In this document: positions 24,431-43,516 of the stretch, piece after piece
Layout of the letters: every line of letters starts with the position of its first letter
Position numbering within the stretch: the stretch's first letter is position 1
From: an uncultured Bacteroidales bacterium
Lineage (GTDB): Bacteria > Bacteroidota > Bacteroidia > Bacteroidales > UBA932
Direction of reading: 5' to 3'
NCBI GenBank assembly: GCA_905234285.1
Contig: CAJOHK010000001.1
Location: 69,375-133,374 of the forward strand
DNA: 64,000 bases
The notes under the pieces: generated by a model
The model's database searches: none
Seen by the model: the letters and a program-made list of their open reading frames with translations, nothing else
What the model was told of the DNA's origin: nothing
Translations under genes and position numbers: made by a program

Positions 24431-24472
24431 TAAAATAAAGGACAAGGTTTTTCGGCCTTGTCCTTTATTTTA
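24431..24472. terminator. Bidirectional terminator between sdhB and convergent lipocalin gene
   Basis: TAAAATAAAGGACAAGG-tttttcgg-CCTTGTCCTTTATTTTA near-perfect long stem. Confidence 0.85.
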
Positions 24473-24892
24473 GTAGATATTACTTGTTACTGAGGCTGGA
24501 ATGGCGTCTATCCGGTTATAGACGTCGGTTTCACTGCCTTTTGAGAGGGAAAGGCTGTTGCCCGATAGCGAGTAGCTGTAGGGTCCCCAGCTCTTTCCAC
24601 CGGTATAGCTGCCGGAAAGGCTTCCGTCCGAGGCGCTCCAACTGCCGGTAAATTTGGTGTATCGGCCTTCACCCAGTTTCTGATACAGGGTAAAAGAAGA
24701 CTCGGCAAAGTTAATGTACACGCTTACCGAAACACTGCCTACACTGGCTTTGGTTTGTACGGAGGACAGTTCCCAGCAACCAACCAGACCGGTAGAAGGT
24801 TCCGGAGTAGGGTCATCCTTCTTGCAGGAAAGGGCCAGCAGCATGAGGGCTGCCAGCGCAAAGAATGTAGCTAATCTTTTCATCATAACCAT
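24470..24892 (-). CDS. Lipocalin-like lipoprotein (left operon)
   Basis: Lipobox LALSCKKD; LVGCWELSSVQTK...SWSASDGSLSGSYTGGKSWGPYSYSLSGNSLSLS; paralogue of 46555..46983. Confidence 0.65.
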   Translation of the reverse strand: MVMMKRLATFFALAALMLLALSCKKDDPTPEPSTGLVGCWELSSVQTKASVGSVSVSVYINFAESSFTLYQKLGEGRYTKFTGSWSASDGSLSGSYTGGKSWGPYSYSLSGNSLSLSKGSETDVYNRIDAIPASVTSNIY

Positions 24893-26886
24893 CCTCCTGT
24901 TCCATTACCACCATCGGCCTCGCGGGCGATGACGGAGATTTTACGGTCTATTTCCATACCTCCGGGGGGATTATCTCCACCGCCCAGATGGTCACCGCCT
25001 CCAATCACCTTAATAGTCATGGTGCCGGAACCCACCTTGGTGGGATGGATATACAGACGGCCGAACTGAACATAGCCATAGCATTCCCCTGCAGGCGTGG
25101 CGGGATACTTGCTGTCACTGGTGCCCTGAATCTTTTGCAGACCCAGTGCATCAATGGTAGCCTGAGGAATGACTACATCCAGGTAGGAAAGGCTCACCGA
25201 AGAGCTTCCCAGGGCCGATTCCAGGCTGATCCACTGCTTTTTACCCACGGCAGCCGTAGAGCTGGGAATGCCTTCGATGTTCATCATGAGGCGCCAGGCG
25301 TCAATGGCACCGGTACCCATCTGGTGATAATACTTGGCATAGCCATCCAGCGTAGTGTTGGCAATGCGCTGGTCTATGTCGTCGGTCGATGCCAGAATGA
25401 GCTGCTTAAACTCATTGACGGTGAACTTTTTGCCGATTTGTTTGGCATAGGAGAGCGCCAAAGCTACCACACCGGAAACATGCGGGCAGGCCATGGAGGT
25501 GCCTTGCATGTAGCCGTAGTCGTTGCCATTTTCTGTCTCAGAACAAACAGTTGACAGAACGCCGCCATATTGATAATTCAGTTTCATATCCCCTCCGGGA
25601 GCCGCAATATTGCAGCCCGGACCGTAGTTGGTGTAGTAGGCCGGCATGTAGTTGGCGGCAAAGGCCGATACGCTGATAATGTCTACGAATGCTCCAGGGT
25701 AATGGGCAAAATCGTGCTGTTCGTTACCGGCTGCAAAAATGGCAATATTTCCATCCAGTACGGTATTGTTTCCTTTTGTGTTTTCGAAATAGCGGATCGC
25801 ATCAATCTCGGCCGAGCCAAATCGCTTGATGAAAGCGTTATCGGAAGAAATGGAACTATCATATCCAAAAGAACAGGAAATAATGGATGCTCCGTTATCG
25901 GCAGCATATTTAATGGCTTTTGCTGCATCTCCGCCCGCGGTTCCTTCAAAAATCTGGCAGGACATAATCTTACAGCCATCTTTCTTTCCGGTTCCGCCTG
26001 CCAGACCGGCAACGCCACGTCCGTTATTGTTCACGGCAGCAATGGTTCCAGCACAGTGGGTTCCGTGGCTGGAATCGCCATAACTATCTGGCTTTACCCA
26101 ATCAATGAATCCGGTTTTGGAAACAAAATTATATCCATAGACATCGTCAATATATCCGTTATGATCGTCGTCTATACCGTTACCGGGTATTTCATCGGCA
26201 TTTATCCAAATATTATCCTTCAAATCAGGGTGAGTATTCTTGACGCCTTTATCCACCACGGCTATAACAATGCTTTCATCTCCGCAGATAAGACGGGCCC
26301 AAACGTCCTTCACATTCACATCGGCACCCTTCACAGCACCGGTACCATATTTTTCATTACCCGTGTTGATGTAATGCCACTGATCGCCAATCATGGGATC
26401 GCTGAAGTTGTTAAAGGAAAGCGTTCCCTTGGTATCTGGATATTCCTGGGCCGGAACAGTCATAAACTCATTCTCCGGAATGGAATACTGGAGTTTGTAC
26501 TGCACCACCGAAACCTGCTTAAGAGCCGCTGCTTCCAGGACTTTTGCATCCAGGCTGGCGCCTTCCTCCACGGTCACCTCATACCAGCGGTCCAGGCCGA
26601 ACTGAGCCTCCAGCGCCTCTTTACCGGGCATGTGGGGGAAGTAAGGCTGAACGCTCACAGTACCGTTACCCAGCAGGGTTTCTACTTGCTCCTGGGTAGG
26701 TTTTACGGCAAATTTCACCAGAAAAGCCTGATTACTCACAGCTGTTTCCCCTTTAAAGAGGATTTTCTGGCTGATTTGCTCCTGATCTGCGCTCTCCTGC
26801 GCAGGCTCTGCCTCCGACAGTTTGTCGGTGCAGGCCCAGCAGGCGCACAGCGCCGCCATCAGCGGCAATAACTTGTGTGTTTTCAT
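24883..26886 (-). CDS. S8 subtilisin-like serine protease lipoprotein (left operon)
   Basis: Lipobox CWACTDK; triad motifs VVDKGVKNTHPDL, SSHGTHCAGTIAAVNNNGRGVAG and GTSMACPHVSGVVAL. Confidence 0.92.
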   Translation of the reverse strand: MKTHKLLPLMAALCACWACTDKLSEAEPAQESADQEQISQKILFKGETAVSNQAFLVKFAVKPTQEQVETLLGNGTVSVQPYFPHMPGKEALEAQFGLDRWYEVTVEEGASLDAKVLEAAALKQVSVVQYKLQYSIPENEFMTVPAQEYPDTKGTLSFNNFSDPMIGDQWHYINTGNEKYGTGAVKGADVNVKDVWARLICGDESIVIAVVDKGVKNTHPDLKDNIWINADEIPGNGIDDDHNGYIDDVYGYNFVSKTGFIDWVKPDSYGDSSHGTHCAGTIAAVNNNGRGVAGLAGGTGKKDGCKIMSCQIFEGTAGGDAAKAIKYAADNGASIISCSFGYDSSISSDNAFIKRFGSAEIDAIRYFENTKGNNTVLDGNIAIFAAGNEQHDFAHYPGAFVDIISVSAFAANYMPAYYTNYGPGCNIAAPGGDMKLNYQYGGVLSTVCSETENGNDYGYMQGTSMACPHVSGVVALALSYAKQIGKKFTVNEFKQLILASTDDIDQRIANTTLDGYAKYYHQMGTGAIDAWRLMMNIEGIPSSTAAVGKKQWISLESALGSSSVSLSYLDVVIPQATIDALGLQKIQGTSDSKYPATPAGECYGYVQFGRLYIHPTKVGSGTMTIKVIGGGDHLGGGDNPPGGMEIDRKISVIAREADGGNGTGGWL

Positions 26887-26964: not shown

Positions 26965-29430
26965 TTACTTAACGCTGTTACAAGAGTTGGAAGTCATCTT
27001 GTTTTCCTTAGCCATACGAGTGTAAGAAACCTTAGCGGCCACTTTCACAGGCTTGGCTTCGCGCTCGAAGACTCTTCTCTCGCCTTTCAGTTCTTTTCCG
27101 GTGAAACGGTAATTATGAACCGAAGATACAGACTTCTTCTGAATAGAAGGCAGCAATGCAGGAGCTTCGGCCTCTTCAAGAGTTGCATCGGGATTGAAGG
27201 TAATAGAGTAGGCATTATCGGCATCATTATTACCATAATACCATCCACCGTTGTTATAATTGGCCATTGCCTTCAGGATAGCTCTATATTCAAAGGTAAT
27301 CTTGTTGTCGGCGTAAGTAGCACCGGGGATACCATTGGCCTTAAGGAAATCAAGTTCGTAAGTACCAAGATATCTGGCAATTTGGGTAGTGAGGATGAAA
27401 TCACCATAGCCCCAGTTGCAACCTGTATCGAAGTACTCGAAGTAAGTGTACTCAGGATCGGCGGTATTAATCACTAAATAGTAATCTTTACTGTCATCCC
27501 AGTCACCTTCCTCATTGTAAGGGAAGGCAGCGCCATACACATTTACCAGACGGAAACGGGTAGGATCGTCTACACTGCGCTCGAGGGCTACATCATAAGT
27601 AAGTGCCGGATTACTGAACCAAGGACCAACGAATGCGTCAGTCCAAGTAGCCGTTCCATAGGGTTCCCATACCTCAGGGCTTTCAGTGGTTGCAAAGGTA
27701 GCATAGGCAAAATCGTCCATGTCACCGTTTGTGGCCCAAATGACAACGGCATACTCTGTACCGGCATCCAATCCACCAATGGCATCATAATAGCCACCTA
27801 CGGCATTGATTTTTGCAAGTACATCATCGCTGACGGTATAATCGCCATCCTTATCTTCCTTGAGGGCGTAGAGTAAGTTATTGCCAAGAGAACTTGCCTT
27901 AACAATAATGGCGTGAACCTCGGTGAGATCCTCACCGCTTACACCGTAAGCAAAAGAATTGTATTCATTATAACCGGCAGTAGCATAACGGGCAGGCGTT
28001 TCCTCAGTGAAGACGCTTACTTTTACCTCATACTTCTCTACGTCCTCTGCGGCAATATGGTGGAATATCACATAACCGGCATCCTTGGCTTCGCCCTTGC
28101 TGTCAAAACTTACAGCTACAAAAGTGTAATCACCCGTTGCTTCGGGGGCCAGTTGCAGTGTAGCGTAGAGAACACCTTCGTCTTCATCCAGTTCAAACTC
28201 GTCAAACTTTACGGATTCGTCCGTTCCGTCGGCAATGAGCGGGGCCTTGTTGGCCGCCTGGGTAGAAGTAAGTTCGCCGGGATAGATGGCATACTTGATG
28301 TAACTTACATCCTTGCCGGTTTCAATATACACGGGGGTGTAGCCTTCGGAAGAATAGTCGGTTTCGACTTCCTTAATGGAATAGTCGGTGCGGTCGAAAC
28401 CACTGGCAATGGCAACAGTGCCGTAGTTATCGGGAGACCAACCACCCAAGCCAGGCATGTAGAAGTAAATGTTGAAGAAGAAAGCACCGTTACCGTCATA
28501 GTAACCTACAGGATAATTACCGGTTGTCTTTCCCGTATTGTTGGCTTCATCCAGCCAGTTGCTACCCATGCCGCTGGAACCCCAATCGTATCCTCTTTCT
28601 ACCCAGTACCAGGCATAGTCATAAACATAAATGGGAGTAACGGCATCTTCCAGAGGAACGGCAAGCCAGTCGCCATTATTATAGTCATAGCCAAAGTATT
28701 GCTTTTCGAGTTCGACAAAGTCGTAACCCAAATCGTTCTTATGGCTCAGACCATCCTGATCTTCTGTATACCAGCGTATATTCAGTTCTACTGAAGGATC
28801 ACTATGCCAGAATCCTTGTGCTTTACCGTCTTTATCGGTATCAATACTGGTGAATACACCCGTGCGGACACCACCTACCTCATAATACTTAAGGGTAGCC
28901 TGCATGGGACCGAACGTGTTATCCCAGCGTGAATTGATAGTGAATACGGCGGGTTTATTGGTTTTTGGATCCATAAAATCAATCCAGGAAACAACCAGTA
29001 CATTGCACTTGATGGAAGTTGCACCGGAACCATAGATTAAGGCGTACTTAGGATCGGTTATGTTAATGGCCAATCCGTATTTGACACCTACTTTAGCCTC
29101 GTCAAAGGTGACGTCAAAAGTGGTTTCTTCCTGACCATCGGCAAAACTGATAGCGCCAACATTGAACACGCCGGCGGTATCAACAACCTCTACGGGAACA
29201 GTAATGTCACCAGTAGTGACGGAACGCTTGGCCGTAAAGGTGATGATTCGCTGAGCAGTAGGATCAAAGGTGTGACTACCGGCTGCATCCTGATTGGGGA
29301 AAGAAACGGCCATGCAGTTAGGATCGTCAGACTCGCCTTTGGTATAGACGTCTTCCACCTCCTTGGCGCAGGAAGCCATTACACCAGCTGCAGCAAGCAG
29401 TACAAATGCATATTTGAATAATTTTTTCAT
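26965..29430 (-). CDS. Large surface lipoprotein in SusE-like position (left operon)
   Basis: Lipobox GVMASCAKE; alignable by eye with 40775..43516 (FDPT..., DGQEE..., KYYEVGGVR). Confidence 0.65.
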   Translation of the reverse strand: MKKLFKYAFVLLAAAGVMASCAKEVEDVYTKGESDDPNCMAVSFPNQDAAGSHTFDPTAQRIITFTAKRSVTTGDITVPVEVVDTAGVFNVGAISFADGQEETTFDVTFDEAKVGVKYGLAINITDPKYALIYGSGATSIKCNVLVVSWIDFMDPKTNKPAVFTINSRWDNTFGPMQATLKYYEVGGVRTGVFTSIDTDKDGKAQGFWHSDPSVELNIRWYTEDQDGLSHKNDLGYDFVELEKQYFGYDYNNGDWLAVPLEDAVTPIYVYDYAWYWVERGYDWGSSGMGSNWLDEANNTGKTTGNYPVGYYDGNGAFFFNIYFYMPGLGGWSPDNYGTVAIASGFDRTDYSIKEVETDYSSEGYTPVYIETGKDVSYIKYAIYPGELTSTQAANKAPLIADGTDESVKFDEFELDEDEGVLYATLQLAPEATGDYTFVAVSFDSKGEAKDAGYVIFHHIAAEDVEKYEVKVSVFTEETPARYATAGYNEYNSFAYGVSGEDLTEVHAIIVKASSLGNNLLYALKEDKDGDYTVSDDVLAKINAVGGYYDAIGGLDAGTEYAVVIWATNGDMDDFAYATFATTESPEVWEPYGTATWTDAFVGPWFSNPALTYDVALERSVDDPTRFRLVNVYGAAFPYNEEGDWDDSKDYYLVINTADPEYTYFEYFDTGCNWGYGDFILTTQIARYLGTYELDFLKANGIPGATYADNKITFEYRAILKAMANYNNGGWYYGNNDADNAYSITFNPDATLEEAEAPALLPSIQKKSVSSVHNYRFTGKELKGERRVFEREAKPVKVAAKVSYTRMAKENKMTSNSCNSVK

Positions 29431-29442
29431 AACAGTCTCATA

Positions 29443-31047
29443 TTATTCAGCGTCGGGAACAGGAGTAGGCGTACCGCCGATAGGGTTGTTATCGGCGTCA
29501 GTAAGCTTTTGGTTGGCCTCAATCTCAGACTTGGGAATCTGATAGATCATGAGCGGATCTTCGGGGCCGATGTTAAAGACAAACTTAGCATCGAAACCGG
29601 CACCACGGCGATCAAGACCCTTACCCAGACGGAGGATATCAAAGTAGGAGATACCCTCGCCCCAGAGTTCGATACGGCGCTGCAGGATAACGGCATCAAT
29701 CACAGAATTAGCATCGGAGCCAACGGTGAAGTCGGGGTTACGATAGGTGCTGACGAATTCCTTCAGGGTGGCAGCTCCGGAGGCAGCATCGCCGCTGCGG
29801 GCTTCGCACTCGGCCTTGATCAGGTACATTTCCTCAATACGCATGAGAATAATGTCATTGGCGTTGGTAGAGGAATAAAGCTCGCCCTTATACGGAGCAA
29901 ACTTAACCTGGGTGTAACCGGGGCAGCCGGCATCATTGATGACGTAATCCTGCTGCTCGGCGGTGAGATTGGCCGACATGCTGTCGGCATCCAGGAACCA
30001 GCCCTTACGGGTGTCGGTAGCGGGGATGGCGTTATACAGGGCCTTGCTAATCATTCTCCAGGCACCCACAGAAGCATAACCGTAATTGAGGGAACCCATG
30101 TGAGAAGGCCAGTTAACAATACCGGAAGTAACTACACGGTCGGTCTCGGTGATGGCGACACCCCACATCCAGTTGGGCTCGGTCATCTTGATGAAGCCGG
30201 GCTTCTTGCTGTCCTCCAGAGGGAGAGGAGTGGCGTCGCTCAGTTCGATAGCGGCCTTGGCGTCTTCCAGGGCGCCGGCATAGTCCTGCATGACCAGGCG
30301 GATACGGGCACGTAGGCCGTGAGCCGTAGCGGCATCCAGATAGCGCTTGTCGTCGCGGACAGTGGCAGAAGACTCAAGGAGTTCTACAGCCAGGTCGATA
30401 TCGGAGAGAATCTGGTCATATACTTGCTGTACGGTAGAGCGGGCGCAACCTTCGGCTGCAGCCTCGTTGGCATTGGTGTCCAGAATCAGCGGTACGCAGG
30501 GCATGTTCTCGTGACCCTTGTAGGTGAACTGATAGACCTGAGCCAAGTTAAAGTAGTCAAAAGCACGGATAGCCAGAGCCTGGGCCAGATAGAACTTGGA
30601 CAGGTCGTTGGTACCGGCCTTAATGGACTCGGCATCCATAATGCCAACTACCTGGTTAGCCGCGTAAATCTGGTTATAAAGGGTAGCCCAGACGATACGG
30701 GTTTCACGATAGTTGAAAGTGCGGTCGCTGATGAGGTCCAGTCCGCGGCTGAACCAGTTGTAACCGATGTCCTCGCTCACAATGTCTTTACCACGGCTGT
30801 CAAGGGCCAGCATCACGGAAGGATAGCCAAAGTCGGTGTGGTCATCGCTGTACACATTCATGTACACGCTGAACATGGCGGTAATACCGCTTACGGAGGC
30901 GCTCACCATCTGAGGTTTGGCGGCCACCACGTCCTCTTTCTGCTTGCTGGTTACAGTAGATCCCGTCGGTTCCGTATCAAGTTTGGTACATCCCGCGAGC
31001 ACTGCACCGGTAAGGAGAACTGCTACTGAATAATTATACCATTTCAT
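29443..31047 (-). CDS. SusD/RagB family nutrient-binding lipoprotein (left operon)
   Basis: Lipobox LAGCTKLDTEPTG; AQALAIRAFDYFNLAQVYQFTY...ILMRIEEMYLIKAECEAR...ILQRRIELWGEGISYFDILRLGKGLDR. Confidence 0.92.
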   Translation of the reverse strand: MKWYNYSVAVLLTGAVLAGCTKLDTEPTGSTVTSKQKEDVVAAKPQMVSASVSGITAMFSVYMNVYSDDHTDFGYPSVMLALDSRGKDIVSEDIGYNWFSRGLDLISDRTFNYRETRIVWATLYNQIYAANQVVGIMDAESIKAGTNDLSKFYLAQALAIRAFDYFNLAQVYQFTYKGHENMPCVPLILDTNANEAAAEGCARSTVQQVYDQILSDIDLAVELLESSATVRDDKRYLDAATAHGLRARIRLVMQDYAGALEDAKAAIELSDATPLPLEDSKKPGFIKMTEPNWMWGVAITETDRVVTSGIVNWPSHMGSLNYGYASVGAWRMISKALYNAIPATDTRKGWFLDADSMSANLTAEQQDYVINDAGCPGYTQVKFAPYKGELYSSTNANDIILMRIEEMYLIKAECEARSGDAASGAATLKEFVSTYRNPDFTVGSDANSVIDAVILQRRIELWGEGISYFDILRLGKGLDRRGAGFDAKFVFNIGPEDPLMIYQIPKSEIEANQKLTDADNNPIGGTPTPVPDAE

Positions 31048-31066: not shown

Positions 31067-34000
31067 TTAGAAAGTAAGTTTTAAGCCACCGGAAACCGTA
31101 CGCAGGGCCGTATAAACAGCCGAGGTAGAGGAGGTAACTCCCTGACGGGGATCCATACCCTGACGGGCCGACAGCACAAAGAGATTGTCACCGGAAACAT
31201 AGAAGCGGACAGCTTCAATCTTAATCTTGCGGGTCCACTTCTGGGGCAGGGTATAGCCCAGCGTTACGTTGTTCAGGGACAGATAGTTGGAGGAGGTGAG
31301 CCAGCGGTCACTGGTCTCGGCGGTATATTTGTCGGCGTTGTCTACACGGGGAACATCCGTTACGTCACCGGGCTTCTGCCAGGACTTGAGGATATCCATG
31401 TGCCAGTTTTGACCGGCATCGCCGGAGGCACCGCCGTGCATGAGGTTGGCATAGCCGCTGTCGTACAGACGACCGCCCAGCTGATAGGAGAACTGGCAGG
31501 AGAGGTCTACGCCATAGAATTCCAGGGAGGTGCCGAAACCGCCATAAACGGGAGCGGCAATGTTGCCGGTAGGCGTACGGTTGGTAGAAGAGGCCACCGT
31601 GTAGTCGGAGGTCTTGTATTCTTCACCCGTATCTTCGTTCTTGGCCCAGTAGAGCGCCTGACCATCGTCGGGGTCTACGCCGGCGTACTTGACCAGATAC
31701 ATCTGATACATGGAGTCGCCTTCTTTATAGATGCGGGAACCGTCGATGAGTTCGCCGTTGAGCTCGGGAGCCAGCGTAAGGATGGTGTTCTTCACATACG
31801 TGATGTTACCAAAGAGGTTCCAGTCAAAGTTCTTCTTGCGGAGCACGTTCCAGTTGAATTCGAATTCAACACCGTTGTTCTTCATGGAACCAATGTTCAT
31901 GGGAATGCTGGAATAACCGTTGGAAGCAGCAACCGGCTTGTAGTACAGCATGTCGCGGGAGGTACGGTCGAAGTACTCCAGGCTGCCGCTGAGACGACGG
32001 TCAAAGAGGTCGAAGTCTACGCCGATATTGAAAGCGTTGGTGGTTTCCCAGGTGAGGTCCGGATTACCCTTGTACACAAGGTTGGCATCGGAGAAGACGC
32101 CCTCGGCACCGGTCATCTGATACTGGTCCAGGTAGGCATAGTAGTTGCCGATGCCGTCGTTACCCTGCTGGCCGAAGGAAGCCTTGAGTTTGAGCATGTC
32201 TATCCAGTTGGCCTTGAACCATTTTTCCTTATTGATGACCCAGGCGCCGGAAACGCTCCAGAAGTTACCCCAGCGCTTATCGGGGGCAAAACGGGAAGAT
32301 CCGTCACGACGATAGGAAGCGCTCAGGAAGATGGTTCCGTTGTCGTCGTAGTTGATACGGCCGATGAAACCCTGGGTGGAATACTCGCCGGTGGAACCGC
32401 CGCCGCGCTTCTGGTCGATACCGTTGTTCACAGCCCACACGCCCTCACGATAGAGGTTCTGGCTGGAAGCATAGACGTTCTCGCTCTTGTAGTTGTAACC
32501 TTCATACACAAAGGTGGCATCCAGGTTATGGCGGCCGCCGAAGCAGTGGTGATAGTTGGCCAGGATTTGCTTGGTAAGGCTGCTGGTGCGCTCCTGAGAC
32601 TGGTAAGCGGTACCGCCGTAAGCGGCGCTTTGTCCATAGAGGGAACTGCCGGCATTGTGATAACGGGTGTTATCAATCATGGTGGCAACGGTACCGGTGA
32701 TGGTGAGGCCTTCGATGGGCATCAGGGAAACATACCACTTGCCGTTGAGGATGTCGGACTTGTATTCTTCTACCGTGTAGCTGAGGTCGCCCAGCGGGTT
32801 GGAGATGGACATCCAGTTACGGGTCTTGGGCGTGCTGGAACCGTCACCCCAGTCGTAAATCTTGTTGCCGTTGTCGGTTACAATCTCGTTGCCGATGAGT
32901 TTTCCATCGTCATCGTACAGAGCCTTGCGCACGTAGATAGGATAAACGGGAGCAATGAAGTTGGCAATGTAGAAGGCGTTCATGGAAGAGTTGGTGGTAG
33001 TCTGGCTGTCCGGATAACGGCTGGTGTAGTTGGTGTAACCCATGTTGGTACCAACTTTAAGCCATTTCTTAGCCTGATAGTCCACGGTGGCACGGGTGGT
33101 GAAACGGTTGAAACCGGAACCGGTAATCACACCTTCGTCGGACAGATAACCACCACTTACATAGTAGTTGATCTTCTCGTTACCACCCGATACGCTCAGG
33201 TTGTATTCCTGACGCAGACCGTTGTGGAAAGTAGCATCGGACCAGTTGTCGGCGGTGTAGTAATTGTCACCCTCGGCATAGCCCAGCGTGGCGTTAGGGT
33301 TCAGCTTGCCATTCTGGCCAAAGAGGTTCTGGCCGTCCGGAACGGTGTAAATCTGATAGCCCAGGTTGCCGGGGAACTTGCCGTTGGCATACACATAAGC
33401 ATCGTAGTCGCTGTAGCCCAGGTTGTACTTACCGGCATTGTAGTAGGCCTCATAGAGTTTCTCCATGTAGGTGCCGGTCTGGGTCATGACGTTGTAGTTC
33501 TTGACGGCGCGGGAGTTCACACCTACGCGGGCGTCAAAGTTAACAACGGCGTCATTGCTCTTACCGCGCTTGGTAGTGATCATGATAACGCCGTTGGCAC
33601 CACGGGCACCGTACAGGGCAGCCGAGGAGGCATCCTTGAGCACGGTCATAGACTCGATGTCCTGGGTGTTGATGGCCGAGATGTCACCGTCGTAAGGGAC
33701 ACCGTCTACCACATACAGCGGGGTCATGCTGGCGTTGATGGAGCCGAAACCGCGGATACGCACGGTGGCACCCGTACCAGGCTGACCATTGCTGGACATG
33801 GTTTGTACGCCGGAAACAGCACCGGCGAGGGTGTTGGTGATGTTGGAGGCCTGACGCTTTTCGATGGTCTCGGCCTTTACCGTAGAGGCAGAACCCGTGA
33901 AGGAACTACGCGTGGCAGTACCATAGGCCACCACGATGGTCTCGTCCAGCATTTCGGCGTCGTCTACCAGCACTACGTTGATGCTGGCGCGGCCGTTGAC

Positions 34001-34255
34001 GGGCACATCGATGGGTTCATAGCCCATACAGTTGATTTCCAGAACGCCATTGGTGGGCACGCTCAGGGAGAATGCACCTGCGACGTCTGTCATGGTGTAA
34101 ACGGTATTGTTGCCTTTGAGCACAACGCTGGCGCCAACAATTCCGTTGCCAGCACCGTCCTTAACAGTACCCTTCACATTGATGTTCTGTGCAAGGGCTG
34201 CCGTAGACAGCACTAGCATAACCATGGCTGCGAAAAAAATGCGGATTTTTTTCAT
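31067..34255 (-). CDS. SusC/RagA family TonB-linked outer membrane protein (left operon)
   Basis: Signal peptide, carboxypeptidase-like domain NINVKGTVKDGAGNGIVGASVVLKG, plug LDETIVVAYGTATRSSFTGSA...SMTVLKDASSAALYGARGANGVIMITTKRG. Confidence 0.95.
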   Translation of the reverse strand: MKKIRIFFAAMVMLVLSTAALAQNINVKGTVKDGAGNGIVGASVVLKGNNTVYTMTDVAGAFSLSVPTNGVLEINCMGYEPIDVPVNGRASINVVLVDDAEMLDETIVVAYGTATRSSFTGSASTVKAETIEKRQASNITNTLAGAVSGVQTMSSNGQPGTGATVRIRGFGSINASMTPLYVVDGVPYDGDISAINTQDIESMTVLKDASSAALYGARGANGVIMITTKRGKSNDAVVNFDARVGVNSRAVKNYNVMTQTGTYMEKLYEAYYNAGKYNLGYSDYDAYVYANGKFPGNLGYQIYTVPDGQNLFGQNGKLNPNATLGYAEGDNYYTADNWSDATFHNGLRQEYNLSVSGGNEKINYYVSGGYLSDEGVITGSGFNRFTTRATVDYQAKKWLKVGTNMGYTNYTSRYPDSQTTTNSSMNAFYIANFIAPVYPIYVRKALYDDDGKLIGNEIVTDNGNKIYDWGDGSSTPKTRNWMSISNPLGDLSYTVEEYKSDILNGKWYVSLMPIEGLTITGTVATMIDNTRYHNAGSSLYGQSAAYGGTAYQSQERTSSLTKQILANYHHCFGGRHNLDATFVYEGYNYKSENVYASSQNLYREGVWAVNNGIDQKRGGGSTGEYSTQGFIGRINYDDNGTIFLSASYRRDGSSRFAPDKRWGNFWSVSGAWVINKEKWFKANWIDMLKLKASFGQQGNDGIGNYYAYLDQYQMTGAEGVFSDANLVYKGNPDLTWETTNAFNIGVDFDLFDRRLSGSLEYFDRTSRDMLYYKPVAASNGYSSIPMNIGSMKNNGVEFEFNWNVLRKKNFDWNLFGNITYVKNTILTLAPELNGELIDGSRIYKEGDSMYQMYLVKYAGVDPDDGQALYWAKNEDTGEEYKTSDYTVASSTNRTPTGNIAAPVYGGFGTSLEFYGVDLSCQFSYQLGGRLYDSGYANLMHGGASGDAGQNWHMDILKSWQKPGDVTDVPRVDNADKYTAETSDRWLTSSNYLSLNNVTLGYTLPQKWTRKIKIEAVRFYVSGDNLFVLSARQGMDPRQGVTSSTSAVYTALRTVSGGLKLTF

Positions 34256-34266
34256 AAGCTTTTGGG

Positions 34267-34336
34267 TTAATTAAACATAAATATTGATACAATCACTTAT
34301 TTGCTTGCATCGAATACACTACTAAAGGTCCGTTTA
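34267..34336 (+). repeat. Left 70-bp inverted repeat of invertible segment
   Basis: ttaattaaacataaatattgatacaatcacttatttgcttgcatcgaatacactactaaaggtccgttta; reverse complement of right repeat except T/A at 34315. Confidence 0.95.
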
Positions 34337-34466
34337 CGAATGCACTGACCTTTTCACCTAATGCTTATGATTTATAACAGCGGGAGATTGGTTAAATCCG
34401 TTTTGAGACGTCTGACCGCCGCCTGCCCCGTAAAATGGAAAGTATTGATTATTAATACATTACGCA

Positions 34467-34498
34467 AATTACCCTGCCGGAATTCCGGTAGGGTAATT
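34467..34498. terminator. 32-bp near-perfect palindrome inside the promoter-less end of the invertible segment
   Basis: AATTACCCTGCCGGAATTCCGGTAGGGTAATT; single G/T non-complementary pair. Confidence 0.6.
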
Positions 34499-34557
34499 CT
34501 GCTAAGTTATTGTGTTTCAATTACTTGTGTTTAACGGCCCAAAGGGGTAGGCCGTCG

Positions 34558-34875
34558 TTAAAGTGCTTTTATCTGTTCAATGCTGAGGCCGGTAGCCTTA
34601 GCAATTATCTCCAGAGGTGTGTCCAGCGACTTGAATTTAGCGGCCAGTTCAAGATTCTTCTTTTCCATTCCAGCCTCATAGCGGTCGTTGCCATATTCGA
34701 TACGTTCTTTATCTGATACCATAGCGTTGAAATAGTCTAATTTTGAACTCTCTGGAAGGTCTCTGGTTTGAGCGGCATCTATTACCCTGTCAAAATGAGC
34801 ATCCATACCCTCCGGTTTTCCTGCAAAGTTAGAACTTTCCCTGAAAATATGGAACCATCCCTCCACGTAATTCAT
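34558..34875 (-). pseudogene. C-terminal fragment of Rpn/PD-(D/E)XK family nuclease/putative transposase
   Basis: LDYFNAMVSDKERIEYGNDRYEAGMEKKNLELAAKFKSLDTPLEIIAKATGLSIEQIKAL resembles Rpn-family C-terminal tails; N-terminal nuclease core absent. Confidence 0.5.
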
Positions 34876-34894
34876 CTCTGAAATGGGCTTATTA

Positions 34895-34902
34895 CATTTG
34901 TC
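34895..34902 (+). promoter_or_regulatory. -7-like element TACATTTG upstream of serine recombinase
   Basis: TAnnTTTG, 24 bp before ATG 34927. Confidence 0.45.
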
Positions 34903-34926
34903 AATATAATCAAATCATCAACAGCT

Positions 34927-35517
34927 ATGAATTATGCATACATCAGAGTCAGCACCCAAGAGCAGTCCTATGAGGGGCAGCGTTACCAGATAGAGAAGTG
35001 GAGTGAGCGGCGGCAAATCGTCATACACGCATGGGTGCAGGAAACCGTTTCGGGGACTTGCAGCCTGGAAAAGCGCACCATTGGAAAACTCCTGAGACGG
35101 ATGAAGGCCGGAGACACGCTGATTTGCTGTGAACTGTCACGTCTGGGCCGCAATATGATGATGGTCATGGCCATCCTGAACACCTGCTCCCAAAAGAGCA
35201 TCCGCCTGTATTCCATCAAAGACAGTTTTGAACTCTCCGACTCCCTCAATGCCAAAATCATCGCCTTTGCCTTTTCCCTGGCCGCCGAGATAGAGCGTAA
35301 CCTTATATCTCAACGCACGCGCGAGGCGCTGGCCGCCAAAAAGCAGGCCGGCTATAAGCTGGGGCGACCGGCGGGGGCTTCAAAACAGTGGAAACGCTAT
35401 GAGTCACAGGCACAAACCATACAAAAAAGAATAGAAGGGGGAGAAACAGTGATCCAGATAGCCAAAGAGTTGGGAATTCACAGAAATACACTCTACAGAT
35501 ACCTGAAAACCAGATAA
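34927..35517 (+). CDS. Serine site-specific recombinase (resolvase/invertase, Mpi-like DNA invertase)
   Basis: MNYAYIRVSTQEQSYEGQRYQIEKW...ISGT-like VSGTCSLEKRTIGKLL...ELSRLGRN...AFAFSLAAEIERNLISQRTREALAAKKQAGYKLGRPAG plus C-terminal HTH. Confidence 0.93.
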   Translation: MNYAYIRVSTQEQSYEGQRYQIEKWSERRQIVIHAWVQETVSGTCSLEKRTIGKLLRRMKAGDTLICCELSRLGRNMMMVMAILNTCSQKSIRLYSIKDSFELSDSLNAKIIAFAFSLAAEIERNLISQRTREALAAKKQAGYKLGRPAGASKQWKRYESQAQTIQKRIEGGETVIQIAKELGIHRNTLYRYLKTR

Positions 35518-35696
35518 TAACCCGATTCCCTCCTTTTGCCGACAAGAAATTTATTAAAAATTTAAAATTTAAATTTATCATAAAAGCTTGCAAATTATTC
35601 ACAAATTATAACTAAATTGCGCCTATTACCGCTTTAAAAAGGATTTAGCAATTAAAAAAACTTAATTATATCGCATATAATGCACTATTACAGGCA

Positions 35697-35728
35697 CTTG
35701 CAAATTTCAAATACTTTTGTTTTCTTTG
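35697..35728 (+). promoter_or_regulatory. Promoter-like sequence inside invertible segment, oriented toward right susC
   Basis: CTTG-N20-TTTCTTTG(CAG), with an overlapping TACTTTTG at 35712-35719; ends 20 bp before the right inverted repeat. Confidence 0.5.
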
Positions 35729-35747
35729 CAGCCGAGTTTCGTTTTTT

Positions 35748-35817
35748 TAAACGGACCTTTAGTAGTGTTTTCGATGCAAGCAAATAAGTGATTGTATCAA
35801 TATTTATGTTTAATTAA
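35748..35817 (-). repeat. Right 70-bp inverted repeat of invertible segment
   Basis: taaacggacctttagtagtgttttcgatgcaagcaaataagtgattgtatcaatatttatgtttaattaa. Confidence 0.95.
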
Positions 35818-35829
35818 TCTATCGTGCTT

Positions 35830-38800
35830 ATGAAAAAAATCCGTATTTTTTTCGCAGCTATGGTATTACTGGCCCTGTCGGCCACGGCCTTTGCACAGAA
35901 CATCACTGTGAAAGGTGTTGTGAAAGACTCGGCCGGTGACGGAATTGTGGGCGCGAGCCTTGTGCTCAAAGGCAACAATACCGTTTACACCATGACCAAT
36001 CTCACAGGTGCCTATTCCCTTAGTGTTCCTGCGAATGGTTATCTGGAGGTAAAGTGCATGGGTTACGTAGATCAGGAAATTTCTGTGAACGGCCGCACTG
36101 TCATTGACATTACGCTGGTAGACGACACCCAACTCCTGGACGAGACCATCGTAGTTGCTTATGGTACGGCAACCAAGAGTTCCTTTACCGGTTCTGCCGC
36201 ACAGGTCAAGTCAGAAACCATCGAAAGGAAAGTGGCCACCAGTGTTACCAGCGCCCTGGCCGGTACCACTCCCGGTGTGCAGGTTATCTCCTCCAGCGGC
36301 GACCCTGCCGGCGGTGGAGCAGGAACCATCCGTATCCGTGGTATCGGTTCCATGTACGCCAGCAGCAGCCCGCTGATGATTGTAGACGGCGTCCCTTACG
36401 ACGGTGAAATCTCCGACATCAACCCTCAGGATGTAGAATCCATGTCGGTCCTCAAGGATGCTTCTGCATCGGCCATTTATGGTCACCGCGGCGCTAACGG
36501 TGTGGTTATCATTACCACCAAGAAAGGTAATTCCGGTGATGCTCAGGTAAAGTTCGACGCCCGCGTGGGTGTGAACAGCCGCCTCATCCCCAACTATGAT
36601 GTAATTACCGACCCTGGCCAGTACTATGAGACCTACTTCCAGATGATGTACAACCAGTACCTGTATTCCGGTCACTCGGAGGCAGAGAGCTACGCTTATG
36701 CCAACAAGTATCTGTTTGACCAGAACAATGGTGGTCTGGGTTATCAGGTTTACACTGTTCCCGAGGGAGAAAATCTCATCGGCTACAACTTTAAGCTCAA
36801 CCCTAAGGCTACGCTCGGTTACAGCGACGGTGAATACTATTACATCCCCGACGATTGGTACAAGGAAGCTTTCCACAACTCCATCCGTCAGGAATACAAT
36901 GTATCTGCTTCTGGCAGCGTGGGTAAGGTGAACTACTATGCCAGCGTGGGTTATCTGGATAACACCGGTATCGTGAACAACTCCGGTTACAAGCGTTATA
37001 CCGGCCGTATCAACGCCGATTATCAGGCCAAGTCCTGGATTCGTCTGAGCACGTCCATGAACATTTCCCACACCGATTCCCAAACCGCTGACTGGACCGC
37101 CGACTCCTGGGGCTCCTCCGGTAATATTTTCTATATTGCCAACACCATTGCCCCTATCTATCCGCTGTATGTACGTAAGCTGGATGCCAACGGTAACCCT
37201 TACATTGTAACAGAGAGCGACCGTCTTCTGTACGATGCCAACAACACCAACCAGAAGCGTCCTTCCATTGTGGGCAATGCTATCCGTGACAATGAGTACG
37301 ACCGTACCCAGTCCTATGCCGATGTAATCTCCGGCAAGTTCGGAGCCACCCTCACTCCCCTGAAAGGCCTCACCCTTACCGCCAACGTTGGTTTCACGGT
37401 AGATAACACCCGCGGCAGCTCCCTGAGCAGCCAGTTTGCCGGTTCTGCCAGCACAGACGGTTACGTGAGTGTGGCTCATTCCCGCATGTTCACCGTTAAC
37501 CAGCAGTATCTGGGCGAGTACAAGTTCTCCATTGCCGATGTCCATCACTTCGATATTATGGGCGGCTTTGAGAAATACAACTACACCGCCCAGGGATTGA
37601 GCGGCAGCAACTACCACCTGTTTAACCCGTATATCGGCGAACTGAACAACGCCGACGGTACCGGTTCCATGGTAAGTAACGCCTCTTCTACCAACCGCTA
37701 TGCTACCCAGGGTTTCCTGGCCCGTGTGCAGTACGACGACAACAACACCATCTTCCTGAGTGCCTCCTATCGCCGCGACGCTTCTTCCCGCTTCGCCGAG
37801 GGTCATCGCTGGGGTAACTTCGGTTCCTTTGGTGCCGCTTGGGTTATGAGCAGAGAAAAATGGTTTAAAGCCAAGTGGGTAGACCTTCTCAAGTTCAAAA
37901 TCAGCTACGGTGTGCAGGGTAATGATAGCCTGGGTAGTTACTACCCTTACGCCGACCAGTACTCCCACTCCTGGAGCGAGGAAGACGGTTACAAGCAGGA
38001 GAAGACTTATGTAGGTAACGAAAAACTTACCTGGGAAACTTCTCATTCCTTCAATGTTGGTTTTGACTTTGAACTCTTCAACAACTACCTCAATGGTGGA
38101 TTTGAATGGTTCTCCCGCAAGACCACAGACCTTCTCTATGGCAAGAGCGTTCCCCAGAGCTCAGGTAACCCCACTGGCCAGATTCCTGTGAACGTGGGCT
38201 CCATGCGTAACCGCGGTTTCGAACTCTCCCTGGATGGTGACATTATCCGTAACAAGAATGTGCACTGGACTTGGAATGCCAACTTCAGCCACTATGTGAA
38301 CAAGATTCTGTCCCTGGATGAGAGTGTATCCGAGAATGGTATCCGCAGCGGTAACCAGATTATCAAAGTGGGCGGTTCCATCTACGATGCCTATATGTTC
38401 AAATTTGCCGGGGTAGATCCCGAGACCGGTGAGGCCGAATACTACGCCGAGGTTCTCCTGGACGAGAGCGGCCAGCCCACCAACACTTATGTACAGCGTC
38501 CTACCCAGGAGCAGCTGGACAAGCACCTCACCACCACGGTAAAGACCAAGACCTTCTCCAACGCCACTCAGTACGAGCTGGGCTCCATGCTTCCTAAACT
38601 CTTTGGCGGCTTTGGTACCAGCATCACCGCCTACGGCATCGACTTCAGCTGCCAGCTTTCCTATCAGCTCGGCGGTAAGTTCTATGACGGTTCCTACCAG
38701 AACCTCATGCACACCCAGTCTTCGGCCGGTAGCGCCTGGCACAAGGATGTGCTCAAGGCTTGGCAAAAGCCTGGCGACGTTACCGACGTTCCCCGTAACG

Positions 38801-39099
38801 ACGGCGACATCCAGGTTGCCCAAAGTGCAGTGGACCGCTTTATGGTGAGTTCCAACTATCTTAGCTTCGATAACGTAACGCTGGGTTACACCCTGCCTCA
38901 GAAATGGACCCGCAAGATTAAGATTGAATCGCTCCGTTTCTATGTGGCAGGTGACAACCTCTATGTTCTCACGGCCCGTAAGGGTATCGATCCCCGCTTC
39001 TCCATGGGCGTAGGTTCCATGACCAGCGGCTCCGGTCGCAACACGGGTTACTACTCTGCCATGCGCAGCGTCACCGGTGGTATTACCCTCACGTTCTAA
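35830..39099 (+). CDS. SusC/RagA family TonB-linked outer membrane protein (right operon)
   Basis: MKKIRIFFAAMVLLALSATAFAQNITVKGVVKDSAGDGIVGASLVLKG...LDETIVVAYGTATKSSFTGSA...SVLKDASASAIYGHRGANGVVIITTKKG; ORF track start 35824 (GTG) is 2 codons upstream. Confidence 0.95.
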   Translation: MKKIRIFFAAMVLLALSATAFAQNITVKGVVKDSAGDGIVGASLVLKGNNTVYTMTNLTGAYSLSVPANGYLEVKCMGYVDQEISVNGRTVIDITLVDDTQLLDETIVVAYGTATKSSFTGSAAQVKSETIERKVATSVTSALAGTTPGVQVISSSGDPAGGGAGTIRIRGIGSMYASSSPLMIVDGVPYDGEISDINPQDVESMSVLKDASASAIYGHRGANGVVIITTKKGNSGDAQVKFDARVGVNSRLIPNYDVITDPGQYYETYFQMMYNQYLYSGHSEAESYAYANKYLFDQNNGGLGYQVYTVPEGENLIGYNFKLNPKATLGYSDGEYYYIPDDWYKEAFHNSIRQEYNVSASGSVGKVNYYASVGYLDNTGIVNNSGYKRYTGRINADYQAKSWIRLSTSMNISHTDSQTADWTADSWGSSGNIFYIANTIAPIYPLYVRKLDANGNPYIVTESDRLLYDANNTNQKRPSIVGNAIRDNEYDRTQSYADVISGKFGATLTPLKGLTLTANVGFTVDNTRGSSLSSQFAGSASTDGYVSVAHSRMFTVNQQYLGEYKFSIADVHHFDIMGGFEKYNYTAQGLSGSNYHLFNPYIGELNNADGTGSMVSNASSTNRYATQGFLARVQYDDNNTIFLSASYRRDASSRFAEGHRWGNFGSFGAAWVMSREKWFKAKWVDLLKFKISYGVQGNDSLGSYYPYADQYSHSWSEEDGYKQEKTYVGNEKLTWETSHSFNVGFDFELFNNYLNGGFEWFSRKTTDLLYGKSVPQSSGNPTGQIPVNVGSMRNRGFELSLDGDIIRNKNVHWTWNANFSHYVNKILSLDESVSENGIRSGNQIIKVGGSIYDAYMFKFAGVDPETGEAEYYAEVLLDESGQPTNTYVQRPTQEQLDKHLTTTVKTKTFSNATQYELGSMLPKLFGGFGTSITAYGIDFSCQLSYQLGGKFYDGSYQNLMHTQSSAGSAWHKDVLKAWQKPGDVTDVPRNDGDIQVAQSAVDRFMVSSNYLSFDNVTLGYTLPQKWTRKIKIESLRFYVAGDNLYVLTARKGIDPRFSMGVGSMTSGSGRNTGYYSAMRSVTGGITLTF

Positions 39100-39105
39100 T
39101 TTAAA

Positions 39106-40755
39106 ATGTTCAAGACAATGAAACTCAATAGCTTTATATCGGTTTTATTTGCAGCGCTGGTACTTAGTGCCTGCACTGACATGAACAAAATTGTTCCCGA
39201 AGGCGGTACCCTCCTGGCCTCTCAGTTAAAAGAGACCAACGCTGCTGTTCCTTCCCGTGCTTCTGCTGCTTTCGTAGGTCTGTTCAACCCGCTGGGTAAC
39301 CCCAACTACTTCGGTTATGGAACCCCGGACGATTGGGGCGTACTCATGATGCTTTTCTGCAACGACGTAGAAGGCGCCGATGCCCTCCTCCCGGACAGCA
39401 ACTATAACTGGTTCAGTGTTTGCGGCGAGCTCTCTTCCCGCACGGCTTCTTACCGTAACCCCATGATCCGTTACCGTACGCCTTACATGATTATCGCGAA
39501 CTCTAACGACTTCCTGGCCGGTTTTGACGATAATGTGACGGATCAGGAATCCATCTATATGATTGCCCAGGCCAAGGCTCTGCGTGCATACGCCTATATG
39601 CTCCTGGCCCAGGACTTCCAGTTCACTTACACTATTGCCAAGGATAAGCCTTGCGTTCCCGTGTGCGCCCTGGATATAGAAGATCCCGCCAACAACCCCC
39701 GCGCCTCTGTGGCAGCTATTTATGGTATCATCATGGACGACCTTAATGATGCTGTAAGCAAACTCGCCGGTTATGCCCGTCCTTCCAAGATGTACATCGA
39801 CCAGCATGTGGCCTATGGCCTCCGCGCCCGCGCCAACCTGCTCATGGGTGAGTATGCCGATGCCGCTGCCGACGCCGAGAAAGCCGCCGAAGGTTACACG
39901 CCCGCTTCGATTGAAGAGGTGAGCCATCCCAGCTTCATGGACATTAGCGAGCACAACTGGATTTGGGGCTTTGACATGACGGCCGACGTTGCCAAGACAT
40001 TCAAATATGCTACCAGTTCTTCCTGGCTGCGTTCCTTCTCCTCTTGGGCCTATGCCGCCGGTGCCGGTTGCTACACCATGATTAACAAAATGCTGTACGA
40101 CAAGATTCCTGCGAGCGACGTGCGTAAAGGCTGGTGGGTCGATGAAAACCTGCAGTCCCCGCTCCTGGACGGTCTTACCTGGGATGCCGGTACCGCCGGT
40201 GTTGCTTCCGGTCAGGCTATTCCCCTGTTCGAGTTTGACGACAAACTGGCCTTCCTGCCTTATACCAACGTCAAGTTCGGTTGCAACCCTATCGGCACCA
40301 CCGATAACGCCGAGGATTCCCCGCTCATGCGCGTAGAGGAAATGCTCCTCATCCAGGCCGAGGCCAACTATAAGGCTGGCAACACCGCCAAGGGTATGCA
40401 AATCCTCAACGACTTTGTGTCTACCTATCGTAATCCCGGTTATTCTGCCAGCGCCAGCGGCCGCAGCTTCGAGGACGAGGTTTGGTTCCAGCGCCGTGTA
40501 GAACTCTGGGGCGAAGGTTTCGGTATCCATGACACCAAGCGTCTCAACAAACCGCTTGTACGCTTCCTGGGAACCGCCGAGAGCACCAATATGCCGCCGG
40601 CATTCCGCTTCAACCTGGCTGCCAACGACGGCTGGCTCCTGATGCGCTTCAACAACGGTGAGCTCAACACCAACTTTGGTATTGTAGACAACACTGGTGG
40701 TTCTCTTCCCAAGATGGACCAGAATCCCAGTCTGCGTGACGGTGTGACCGACTAA
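39106..40755 (+). CDS. SusD/RagB family nutrient-binding lipoprotein (right operon)
   Basis: Lipobox VLSACTD; AQAKALRAYAYMLLAQDFQFTYT...LMRVEEMLLIQAEANYKAGN...WFQRRVELWGEGFGIHDTKRLNKPL. Confidence 0.92.
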   Translation: MFKTMKLNSFISVLFAALVLSACTDMNKIVPEGGTLLASQLKETNAAVPSRASAAFVGLFNPLGNPNYFGYGTPDDWGVLMMLFCNDVEGADALLPDSNYNWFSVCGELSSRTASYRNPMIRYRTPYMIIANSNDFLAGFDDNVTDQESIYMIAQAKALRAYAYMLLAQDFQFTYTIAKDKPCVPVCALDIEDPANNPRASVAAIYGIIMDDLNDAVSKLAGYARPSKMYIDQHVAYGLRARANLLMGEYADAAADAEKAAEGYTPASIEEVSHPSFMDISEHNWIWGFDMTADVAKTFKYATSSSWLRSFSSWAYAAGAGCYTMINKMLYDKIPASDVRKGWWVDENLQSPLLDGLTWDAGTAGVASGQAIPLFEFDDKLAFLPYTNVKFGCNPIGTTDNAEDSPLMRVEEMLLIQAEANYKAGNTAKGMQILNDFVSTYRNPGYSASASGRSFEDEVWFQRRVELWGEGFGIHDTKRLNKPLVRFLGTAESTNMPPAFRFNLAANDGWLLMRFNNGELNTNFGIVDNTGGSLPKMDQNPSLRDGVTD

Positions 40756-40774: not shown

Positions 40775-43516
40775 ATGAGAACAATCAATAAATATTTCTA
40801 TCTTCTTGCCGCTGCCGCGCTCGTAGGTGTTGCTTCCTGCGAGAAGGAGAAGGAGGCTTATGCCCCCGGTACTCCCGACAGTGAGACCTGCGAAGGTGTA
40901 TACTTCATCAAGCAGGATGTGATTGAGGAAACGCAGATCTTCGACCCTACTCAGGAGAAGAAGGCCGAGATTAAAGTTCACCGTACCAACAGTGTAGGTG
41001 CGCTTACGGTTACTCCTAAGGTAAGCCTCAGCGAAATGACCAGTAGTGGTCCTGTGGATGGCGATGCCAGCCTGTTCACCGTGTCGGACATTGTATTCGA
41101 AGACGGTCAGGAAGAAGCTATCATGACACTGTCATTCCCTAATGTGAAAGAGGGTGTGCAGTATTCCCTGCACCTCAAGATCGAGGGAGACCAGTATGCT
41201 TCCAAGTACACCAGCAGCCTCATTGCCTGCGACTATAACATGATGTGCGTCAAGTACGAGGATTTCTTGAATCCCGTAACCAAACAGCCTGCTTTGATTA
41301 CCTTTAAGTCAAGTTGGTGGGAAGAAACTCATACTGCATACGTGAAGTATTATGAGGTTGACGGTGTACGTCACTGTGTTACCTATGATGAAAAGCTTGT
41401 AGGAATTCCTGGTGTTGACGGTGGTGCCGATGGCTTCTGGGGAACTGGAAAAGATGTTCATTTTGCTTTCCTCTGGTATGTAAAGGGCGTAGATGAATGT
41501 TCTGATTGTGGGGAGTCTCATCCTTGTAAGGTCCCTTCAGGATATGAAGTACCTGCCGGTTCTTATCTTCTCACTCCGGACAGCCCTCAATATATCTTTA
41601 CCCATTCCTCGGCTGGAGATATCTTTTTCCACGACCAGTATTTGGTTTCTGTGAATTTCAGGAGCTATACCAAATCTTTCCTGCACTATACTGATGCAAA
41701 TGATCTCTTTGATTCCACTTCCTATTATGATGGGAATGGCGGTTTCTATTTTTACTCGGAGTATAATGTAAACAATGCCGGTAGCGGTTGGGGTATTAGT
41801 GCCTTTGATCTTGTAGGTATCGCCGACGGTTTTGTCCGCGCCGATTTTAAGCTTGAGCTTACCGCCGGTGTAACTGAGGTAGACGATGAAGGTAACAACG
41901 TGGTTCCCATCAGCTTTAAACTTGGCTCAGACTCCGACCTTGTTGGTTATTCTATCCTCCCTGGAAAGGCTACTGGCAGTGCTATTACTGCAGAGGTAGC
42001 GGCTATTACCAAGGAAACAGAGGCAATGGCTAAAGAAAAGGAAGCCTGGCTCAACGATAATGTTGACTTCAGCAAGTACAACTCTACTTGGGTTCTTGCA
42101 AGTGGTAAGTCCTTTAAAGACAGCGTCGCTCCTGAGGATGGGGAAACCGGTTTCTTCACTCTGGTCGCGGTAGCTGTTGACACCATCCAAGTGAGAACTA
42201 CGGGAGTAGTATCTGAAGTTAAATTGGAGGTTAAGAATGAAGCCAGTTTGAACTTCCAGTACATCAACACCGGTGAAACCAACCCGGTTATCCTGAATGT
42301 TGCCGCCGGCAGCACCGAGAAGTACATTTCCCGTGGCTATGATCCCGAGACCAGCTTCGAGTACACCATCTCAGGTGCAGGTCTGACCGGTGTTATTCCA
42401 ATGATCTACACCGAGGCCGAGGTAGAAGCAGAAGGTGGTATTGACAGCATACTGGAAGACGTTTTGTCCGACCCCAACTACTTCTATAGCGCACTGTCAC
42501 TTGAGGAGAATAATCCTAGTCTAACCGCCCAGCAGCTTGCCGACGTAAACGATAAGGGCTTCTCTGATATTTACACATCCGGCGTTACCCCTGGCACCAC
42601 CTATTATGTGATTGTTTGGGCAACCAATGGCTACGATTGCGATGTGGCATATGCCACTACCCTCACCGCCGGTGATCCCCTGCCTATTTATCAGAGTTTC
42701 ACCTATAAGAACCGCGCCGATGAACTGATTGATGGTAAATCTGCTTCCGATTTCTATGGTACATATAATTTATATGCTATAGATATGAATGGATCTTCCT
42801 CATTAAGAAGATATATGGGTCAAGCTGTTATCGCAGCCTATGATTCAGAAAAATATGGAGCAGTTGAGGTAAATGGAGAAAGTGCTCAGATTACTGGCCT
42901 TTCTTGTGGCGTAGGTGGTAGCGGTTTTGACGATACTATCTTACTTGATTTCTGTGAAAACCCTCTCGGTGTTGATGATAAGTTAGGACTCTTTGTAGCA
43001 GGAACATCTACTGCAGATGGGAAGTCGGCAGCTCTATACACCTGGGTTCCGGCAGGAAATAATTTTTATAGATGGGATTATGCTTCTGTAGCTTATCCTG
43101 TTATGGACGGTTATATTGCCTTTGTTGGTGAATCCTATTACTCAGACAACTATGGATATTATTCGAATATAAATTTCTATAATGGAGTGATAGATGAAAC
43201 CTTCCGTGATTTCCTGCTTGTAGATCCTGCTAAAGATGACAATGGACTCGCTCCGAAAGTTGCAGCGGCTATATCATCCATAAAGAAAGTCAAGGGAAAG
43301 AAAATTGAGTCCAACTATGGGGCGAAGCTTAATGTGCTTAACAATGTAAACTACAACCCTATCCAGAACCACTTCTTTGCCCCTGTCGGCGTTACAGGTT
43401 TGCAGCCCGTGGTTTCCGTGAAGGAAGTTGTTGCGTTCAAACATAACGTTAGCTTAAGTTCCAAGAAGGGTGTTGTTGAGATCAGCCAATCTCCTATACA
43501 GTGCTTTAACCGTTAA
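40775..43516 (+). CDS. Large surface lipoprotein in SusE-like position (right operon)
   Basis: Lipobox GVASCEKE; paralogous in layout to 26965..29430. Confidence 0.65.
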   Translation: MRTINKYFYLLAAAALVGVASCEKEKEAYAPGTPDSETCEGVYFIKQDVIEETQIFDPTQEKKAEIKVHRTNSVGALTVTPKVSLSEMTSSGPVDGDASLFTVSDIVFEDGQEEAIMTLSFPNVKEGVQYSLHLKIEGDQYASKYTSSLIACDYNMMCVKYEDFLNPVTKQPALITFKSSWWEETHTAYVKYYEVDGVRHCVTYDEKLVGIPGVDGGADGFWGTGKDVHFAFLWYVKGVDECSDCGESHPCKVPSGYEVPAGSYLLTPDSPQYIFTHSSAGDIFFHDQYLVSVNFRSYTKSFLHYTDANDLFDSTSYYDGNGGFYFYSEYNVNNAGSGWGISAFDLVGIADGFVRADFKLELTAGVTEVDDEGNNVVPISFKLGSDSDLVGYSILPGKATGSAITAEVAAITKETEAMAKEKEAWLNDNVDFSKYNSTWVLASGKSFKDSVAPEDGETGFFTLVAVAVDTIQVRTTGVVSEVKLEVKNEASLNFQYINTGETNPVILNVAAGSTEKYISRGYDPETSFEYTISGAGLTGVIPMIYTEAEVEAEGGIDSILEDVLSDPNYFYSALSLEENNPSLTAQQLADVNDKGFSDIYTSGVTPGTTYYVIVWATNGYDCDVAYATTLTAGDPLPIYQSFTYKNRADELIDGKSASDFYGTYNLYAIDMNGSSSLRRYMGQAVIAAYDSEKYGAVEVNGESAQITGLSCGVGGSGFDDTILLDFCENPLGVDDKLGLFVAGTSTADGKSAALYTWVPAGNNFYRWDYASVAYPVMDGYIAFVGESYYSDNYGYYSNINFYNGVIDETFRDFLLVDPAKDDNGLAPKVAAAISSIKKVKGKKIESNYGAKLNVLNNVNYNPIQNHFFAPVGVTGLQPVVSVKEVVAFKHNVSLSSKKGVVEISQSPIQCFNR

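Follow-up and report, generated by a model that had tools for sequence, protein, structure and literature searches.

Does a single DNA segment, carrying a recombinase gene and placed between two divergent SusC/SusD operons, decide which of the two is expressed? We address this question in a window of 64,000 nucleotides (the whole stretch of DNA that was analysed), which is part of a metagenome-assembled genome (MAG) of a gut Bacteroidales bacterium. The locus is likely a self-contained two-way (A or B) SusCD switch that has a recombinase of its own and, as assembled, is set to operon B. That the recombinase is active, that the segment inverts in this strain and that the operon lacking a promoter stays silent are inferences, and no reads, PCR or RNA stand behind the switch model for this strain.

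Two divergent operons and the segment between them

Operon A, on the minus strand, is composed of susC_A (31067..34255; TIGR04056, 799 bits), susD_A (29443..31047; PF14322 and PF07980), a third gene with no Pfam family (26965..29430), a subtilase (24883..26886; Peptidase_S8) and a lipocalin-like protein (24470..24892). Operon B, on the plus strand, contains susC_B (35830..39099; TIGR04056, 742 bits), susD_B (39106..40755), a third gene also without Pfam family (40775..43516), of which the third gene of operon A is a 28% paralogue, a Big_2-domain protein (43532..44470), a subtilase (44542..46542; Peptidase_S8) and a lipocalin-like protein (46555..46983). The TIGR04056 scores and the SusD Pfam matches satisfy the definition of a SusC/SusD operon, that is a SusC/RagA TonB-linked protein with an adjacent SusD. 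Given the subtilases, the imported substrates may be protein or peptide.

Two inverted arms of 70 bp, at 34267..34336 (minus strand) and 35748..35817 (plus strand), lie within the 5' leaders of susC_A and susC_B, respectively. They are complementary at 69 of 70 positions, the sole mismatch being 34315 versus 35769, and 1411 nt separate them; the start of susC_A (34255, minus strand) is found 11 bp outward of the left arm and the ATG of susC_B (35830, plus strand) 12 bp outward of the right one. The original prediction had described this nearly perfect inverted repeat close to two divergent susC starts, with a recombinase between the arms, and both claims and the coordinates were confirmed. The 99% identity of the arms is notable because the adjacent coding DNA of susC_A and susC_B is only 76-78% alike.

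The recombinase (34927..35517, plus strand, 196 aa) contains a Resolvase domain (PF00239, 1.8e-31) and a C-terminal HTH_7 domain (PF02796, 5.5e-8), as expected of a small serine DNA invertase of about 190 aa. Its nearest solved chains are DNA invertases; it aligns with 4m6f/3uj3 across the YxRVST, RLGR and AExER regions, and by this alignment the catalytic serine and arginine motifs are present.

The segment between the arms also includes, at 34558..34875 on the minus strand, the C-terminal fragment of a gene of the Rpn family (recombination-promoting nucleases), with a weak TIGR01784 match. In relatives the same position is occupied by full-length Rpn-like genes (L094, L095 and L098) or by an ATPase-like gene (L126). 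A palindrome, AATTACCCTGCCGGAATTCCGGTAGGGTAATT, separates the Rpn remnant from the left arm (34467-34496); it could conceivably act as an insulating hairpin, and a terminator scan did not call it.

Crossover sites and their central dinucleotide

Aligning both ends of the locus across relatives revealed the composition of the arms: a site nearest the recombinase and a leader nearest the start codon. The 70-bp arm is thus a composite of a short crossover site and a conserved susC 5' leader and not one element, and the emphasis initially placed on 70-bp arms as the notable unit holds only in part. The recombination site is inferred, from sequence alone, to be a core of roughly 12-28 bp, the remaining arm being common susC leader. 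The left crossover site (34324..34335, minus strand) reads AAACG-GA-CCTTT toward susC_A, with its central dinucleotide at 34329-34330; the right one (35749..35760, plus strand) has the same sequence, with its central dinucleotide at 35754-35755, and the motif is conserved in 44 loci. The inferred invertible segment, to which no strand applies, extends between the crossover dinucleotides from 34331 to 35753, about 1.42 kb. The leader element TATCAATATTTATGTTTAATTAA is present in only two copies in the own genome, one before susC_A (34267..34289, minus strand) and the other before susC_B (35795..35817, plus strand); it is also found upstream of susC in many related genomes, and the leader next to the start codon reads TATCAATATTTATGTTTAAYTAA across relatives. 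A hairpin in which the crossover site forms the 3' arm is predicted for the 5' leader in the window, no better than in shuffled sequences (z -0.33); in relatives lacking the switch the same hairpin reached z -2.3 and -3.2 in two of three cases.

Searching the own genome (a MAG of 2.08 Mb, 78% complete) for further copies of the 70-mer, as had been proposed, returned exactly two, which are the two arms; the 20-bp core site AAACGGACSTTTAGTAGTGT also occurs exactly twice, even allowing 3 mismatches, and its reversed control gave 0 matches. These counts bear on one rival explanation, in which the locus is a piece of a larger shufflon and the recombinase also uses sites before other SusCD operons, giving more than two states. 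In favor of it, three copies of the crossover site are present in each of two related genomes, G068 (C15, C79 and C81) and G029 (C42), and 96%-identical operons are found on different inner ends in G197 and G068. Against it stand the two sites of the own genome, with the caveat of its completeness, and we regard a larger shufflon as very unlikely here. Two of the three sites of G029 are direct repeats separated by about 15 kb, an arrangement that could possibly permit excision or multi-state shuffling. Sites are instead about 5-14 kb apart in L207 and L208 (G075:C29 and G410:C9) and in G403:C9:174756-188290, where the putative invertible segment includes extra genes, one of them sulfatase-like.

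To compare the sites across loci, the site on each side was picked by its best match to AAACG-NN-CGTTT, ignoring NN, and 44 loci had good sites. The site is palindromic except for the central dinucleotide, and each locus has two inverted copies. Six kinds of NN are found (CC, CT, AC, GA, TC and GT), none of which is palindromic, and the left NN is identical to the right NN in 44 of 44 loci, the window having GA on both sides; shuffled left/right pairs gave a mean of 10.4 matches and a maximum of 23 in 100,000. Descent alone is inadequate to explain this identity because the columns flanking NN match less well between left and right within a locus and because the recombinase tree implies about 14 changes of NN. 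As NN is not palindromic, the outcome of recombination is fixed as inversion, rather than being either outcome. Two inverted sites with an identical, non-palindromic dinucleotide meet the requirement that serine recombination places on a functional pair; the pattern is shown, catalysis is inferred.

The promoter and the relatives of the proposed switch

A single outward promoter of Bacteroidales type (TTG, about 20 nt, TAnnTTTG-like) is placed just inside the right site, at the 3' end of the recombinase gene, and leads into susC_B. It spans 35698..35728 on the plus strand, with TTG at 35698-35700, a spacer of 20 nt and an imperfect -7 element, TTTCTTTG, at 35721-35728; an alternative -7 element, TACTTTTG, overlaps it at 35712-35719. 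The pattern TTG-N16-22-[TCA]AnnTTTG, read outward, is found at the right inner end in 28 of 44 loci and at the left inner end in 0 of 44, which by pattern is the arrangement expected of a two-way switch, one outward promoter and a promoter-less gene opposite. Operon A is promoter-less in the present orientation, and operon B is inferred to be on from promoter placement, in the absence of RNA data. Sigma-70 and terminator scans gave nothing above shuffled sequences; for sigma-70 this was expected because Bacteroidales promoters differ.

Relatives of susC without a switch have fixed upstream promoters, whose homology is with the right inner end and in no case with the left; for example, L013 is 72% identical to the right inner end of the window over 209 bp. 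The moving piece therefore carries a susC promoter. Six relatives of susC_B with the same leader and a fixed promoter (L004, L008, L009, L012, L013 and L015) are natural unswitched controls, and neither a good crossover site nor a recombinase was found in their fetched flanks. Some unswitched relatives of susC_B have a strong 5'-leader hairpin at the position where the site would be.

The tree of the recombinase includes 81 relatives. Of these, 62 group together with 100/100 support, to the exclusion of the other 19, in a clade that falls within one Bacteroidales genus. Adding one pseudogene-like row to the 62, 45 loci are flanked on both sides by divergent susC genes, contig ends truncate another 10, and the remaining 8 lack susC on one or both sides; the arrangement is thus present in 45 of 53 evaluable clade members and in 1 of 19 outside the clade. 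An order-wide search found relatives at 35-52% identity in other genera, and none of those checked was near susC within the short fetched flanks, except L184, from a different family of the order, whose 47%-identical recombinase lies between divergent susC genes. No relative was found in IMG/VR.

These data allow two further rivals to be weighed. In the first, the segment is an ON/OFF switch of one operon, the other having its own promoter or never being expressed. RNA data are lacking, and susC is absent from one side in L106, L142, L157 and L161, so that one-sided use may exist; however, leader and site are common to both operons, no Bacteroidales promoter was seen at the left inner end in any of the 44 loci and divergent susC genes are on both sides in 45 of 53, and we consider this rival unlikely. 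In the second, a mobile element (a serine-recombinase transposon or an integrative element) sits between two susC genes, or the locus is an assembly misjoin. Serine recombinases also drive transposons and an Rpn remnant lies inside the segment, but place and orientation are identical in dozens of species, the right inner end has its homologue in the promoter of susC in relatives without the switch, and no transfer or transposition genes are present within the segment. The misjoin, a worry raised together with the original prediction, is ruled out by the same layout in many independent assemblies, and this rival as a whole is all but excluded.

Inversion itself can be looked for in relatives, and the case comes from a trio of related genomes. 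One inner-L end (99.2% identical over 1346 bp) is found in both G075 and G197, where its neighbour is arm alpha in the former and arm beta in the latter; in G075, arm beta (83 bp, identical) adjoins the inner-R end, and the change of junction falls inside a common 28-bp stretch that holds the site. This inner-R/beta junction of G075 sits where a contig stops and so depends on a single assembled end. These alternative junctions, which are shown in relatives only, are as inversion predicts and make a stronger case than side counts: orthologous operons of different species (71-91% over 4-6 kb) keep their side of the recombinase in 18 pairs and differ in side in another 18, a count that alone is no proof of inversion because operon partners differ between species; it is confounded by partner exchange and the pairs are not independent. 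No two strains were found that combined highly identical orthologous flanks on both sides with opposite orientation. Contig ends within 500 bp of the recombinase are in excess (8 seen versus 2.2 expected, P about 0.001); this is weak as evidence, since several ends are off the site.

The exchange of junctions also bears on a last rival, in which the locus is a fossil: the susC leader was duplicated in inverted form, the recombinase is dead or there by chance, and nothing inverts. susC_A and susC_B are in fact paralogues with similar leaders. Against this reading, the recombinase of the window is intact, the dinucleotides match through repeated concerted change, the arms are 99% identical versus 78% in adjacent coding DNA, and junctions are exchanged in relatives; a fossil is therefore very unlikely.

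The preferred reading remains the two-way switch. The recombinase would bind both inverted sites, cut at the central GA and flip the 1.42-kb segment including its own gene. As assembled, the promoter would read operon B (susC_B, susD_B, the subtilase and the lipocalin); once flipped, it would face the paralogous operon A instead, and the cell would thus express A or B. Because the sites lie within the 5' leader, both proteins would have similar mRNA leaders in either state. The toggle that had been proposed initially is thus supported by the dinucleotide identity, the one-sided promoter, the position between susC genes and the exchange of junctions; mutually exclusive expression is only inferred from promoter placement, without RNA or read data.

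Relation to known systems and significance

The best NCBIfam model for the recombinase is the Mpi master invertase (NF009949), with 255.3 bits against a cut-off of 272. Mpi of Bacteroides fragilis inverts 13 distant regions (PMC4747536) and, like the recombinase described here, is a small serine recombinase of Bacteroidales flipping promoters of surface loci. The window differs by its two local sites, a gene inside the segment, a score below the cut-off and SusCD targets on both sides; the global, many-site action of the Mpi family is not observed in the 78% complete MAG. Sub-cut-off score, separate clade and only two own-genome sites show the recombinase to be local and not an Mpi-type master invertase, and "Mpi-like", as it was first called, holds only as distant kinship, since the clade is also separate from relatives not associated with susC.

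In B. fragilis, DNA inversion in the Tsr0667 SusC/SusD shufflons also controls SusC/SusD outer-membrane proteins (PMC4747536), but there a tyrosine recombinase acts in trans on multi-site shufflons, whereas in the window the recombinase is of the serine type, is encoded in cis and would flip a promoter between two states; a tyrosine recombinase and more than two sites, which define such shufflons, are both missing. Hin/fljBA of Salmonella is an invertible segment with a recombinase gene and a promoter, leading to two alternative products; Hin exerts its effect on fliC, a distant gene, via a repressor, and its system includes a Fis enhancer. The window resembles it in the contents of the segment and in the two alternative products, and differs because its promoter itself would serve both flanking operons. 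The sap S-layer switch of Campylobacter fetus is an invertible promoter between divergent surface-protein genes, one or the other of which is expressed. This layout resembles that of the window, with other proteins and another recombination system; the sap segment is not known to contain a dedicated small serine recombinase. It was already known that SusCD loci undergo DNA inversion and that serine recombinases flip promoters (PMC4747536; PMC12632263). In the literature searched, which left most subscription papers out of scope, we found no earlier account of two divergent SusCD operons that share one promoter toggled by a dedicated serine recombinase encoded in cis.

A bolder reading, which we offer only as a possibility, is that switch loci are exchange hubs, where the recombinase toggles operons and also reshuffles their pairings; common sites and leaders might let SusCD operons swap among switch loci, silent loci and genomes. 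Hints come from the same operon having different partners in different species, as well as from the 96%-identical operon (G197, G068) and the three-site genomes (G068, G029) mentioned above.

What is known of SusCD phase variation comes mainly from a few Bacteroides of the human gut, which rely on tyrosine recombinases or on a master invertase acting in trans. In the present case a clade of dedicated serine recombinases spans a large uncultured genus, including rumen species, with its own A-or-B switch per locus, and some 44 relatives share the design of the window. Together the loci form a natural collection of site pairs whose crossover dinucleotides differ, and the site motif can be used to find such switches in other genomes by sequence. 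The switch represents a compact and testable system for bet-hedging in nutrient uptake or in phage-receptor exposure.
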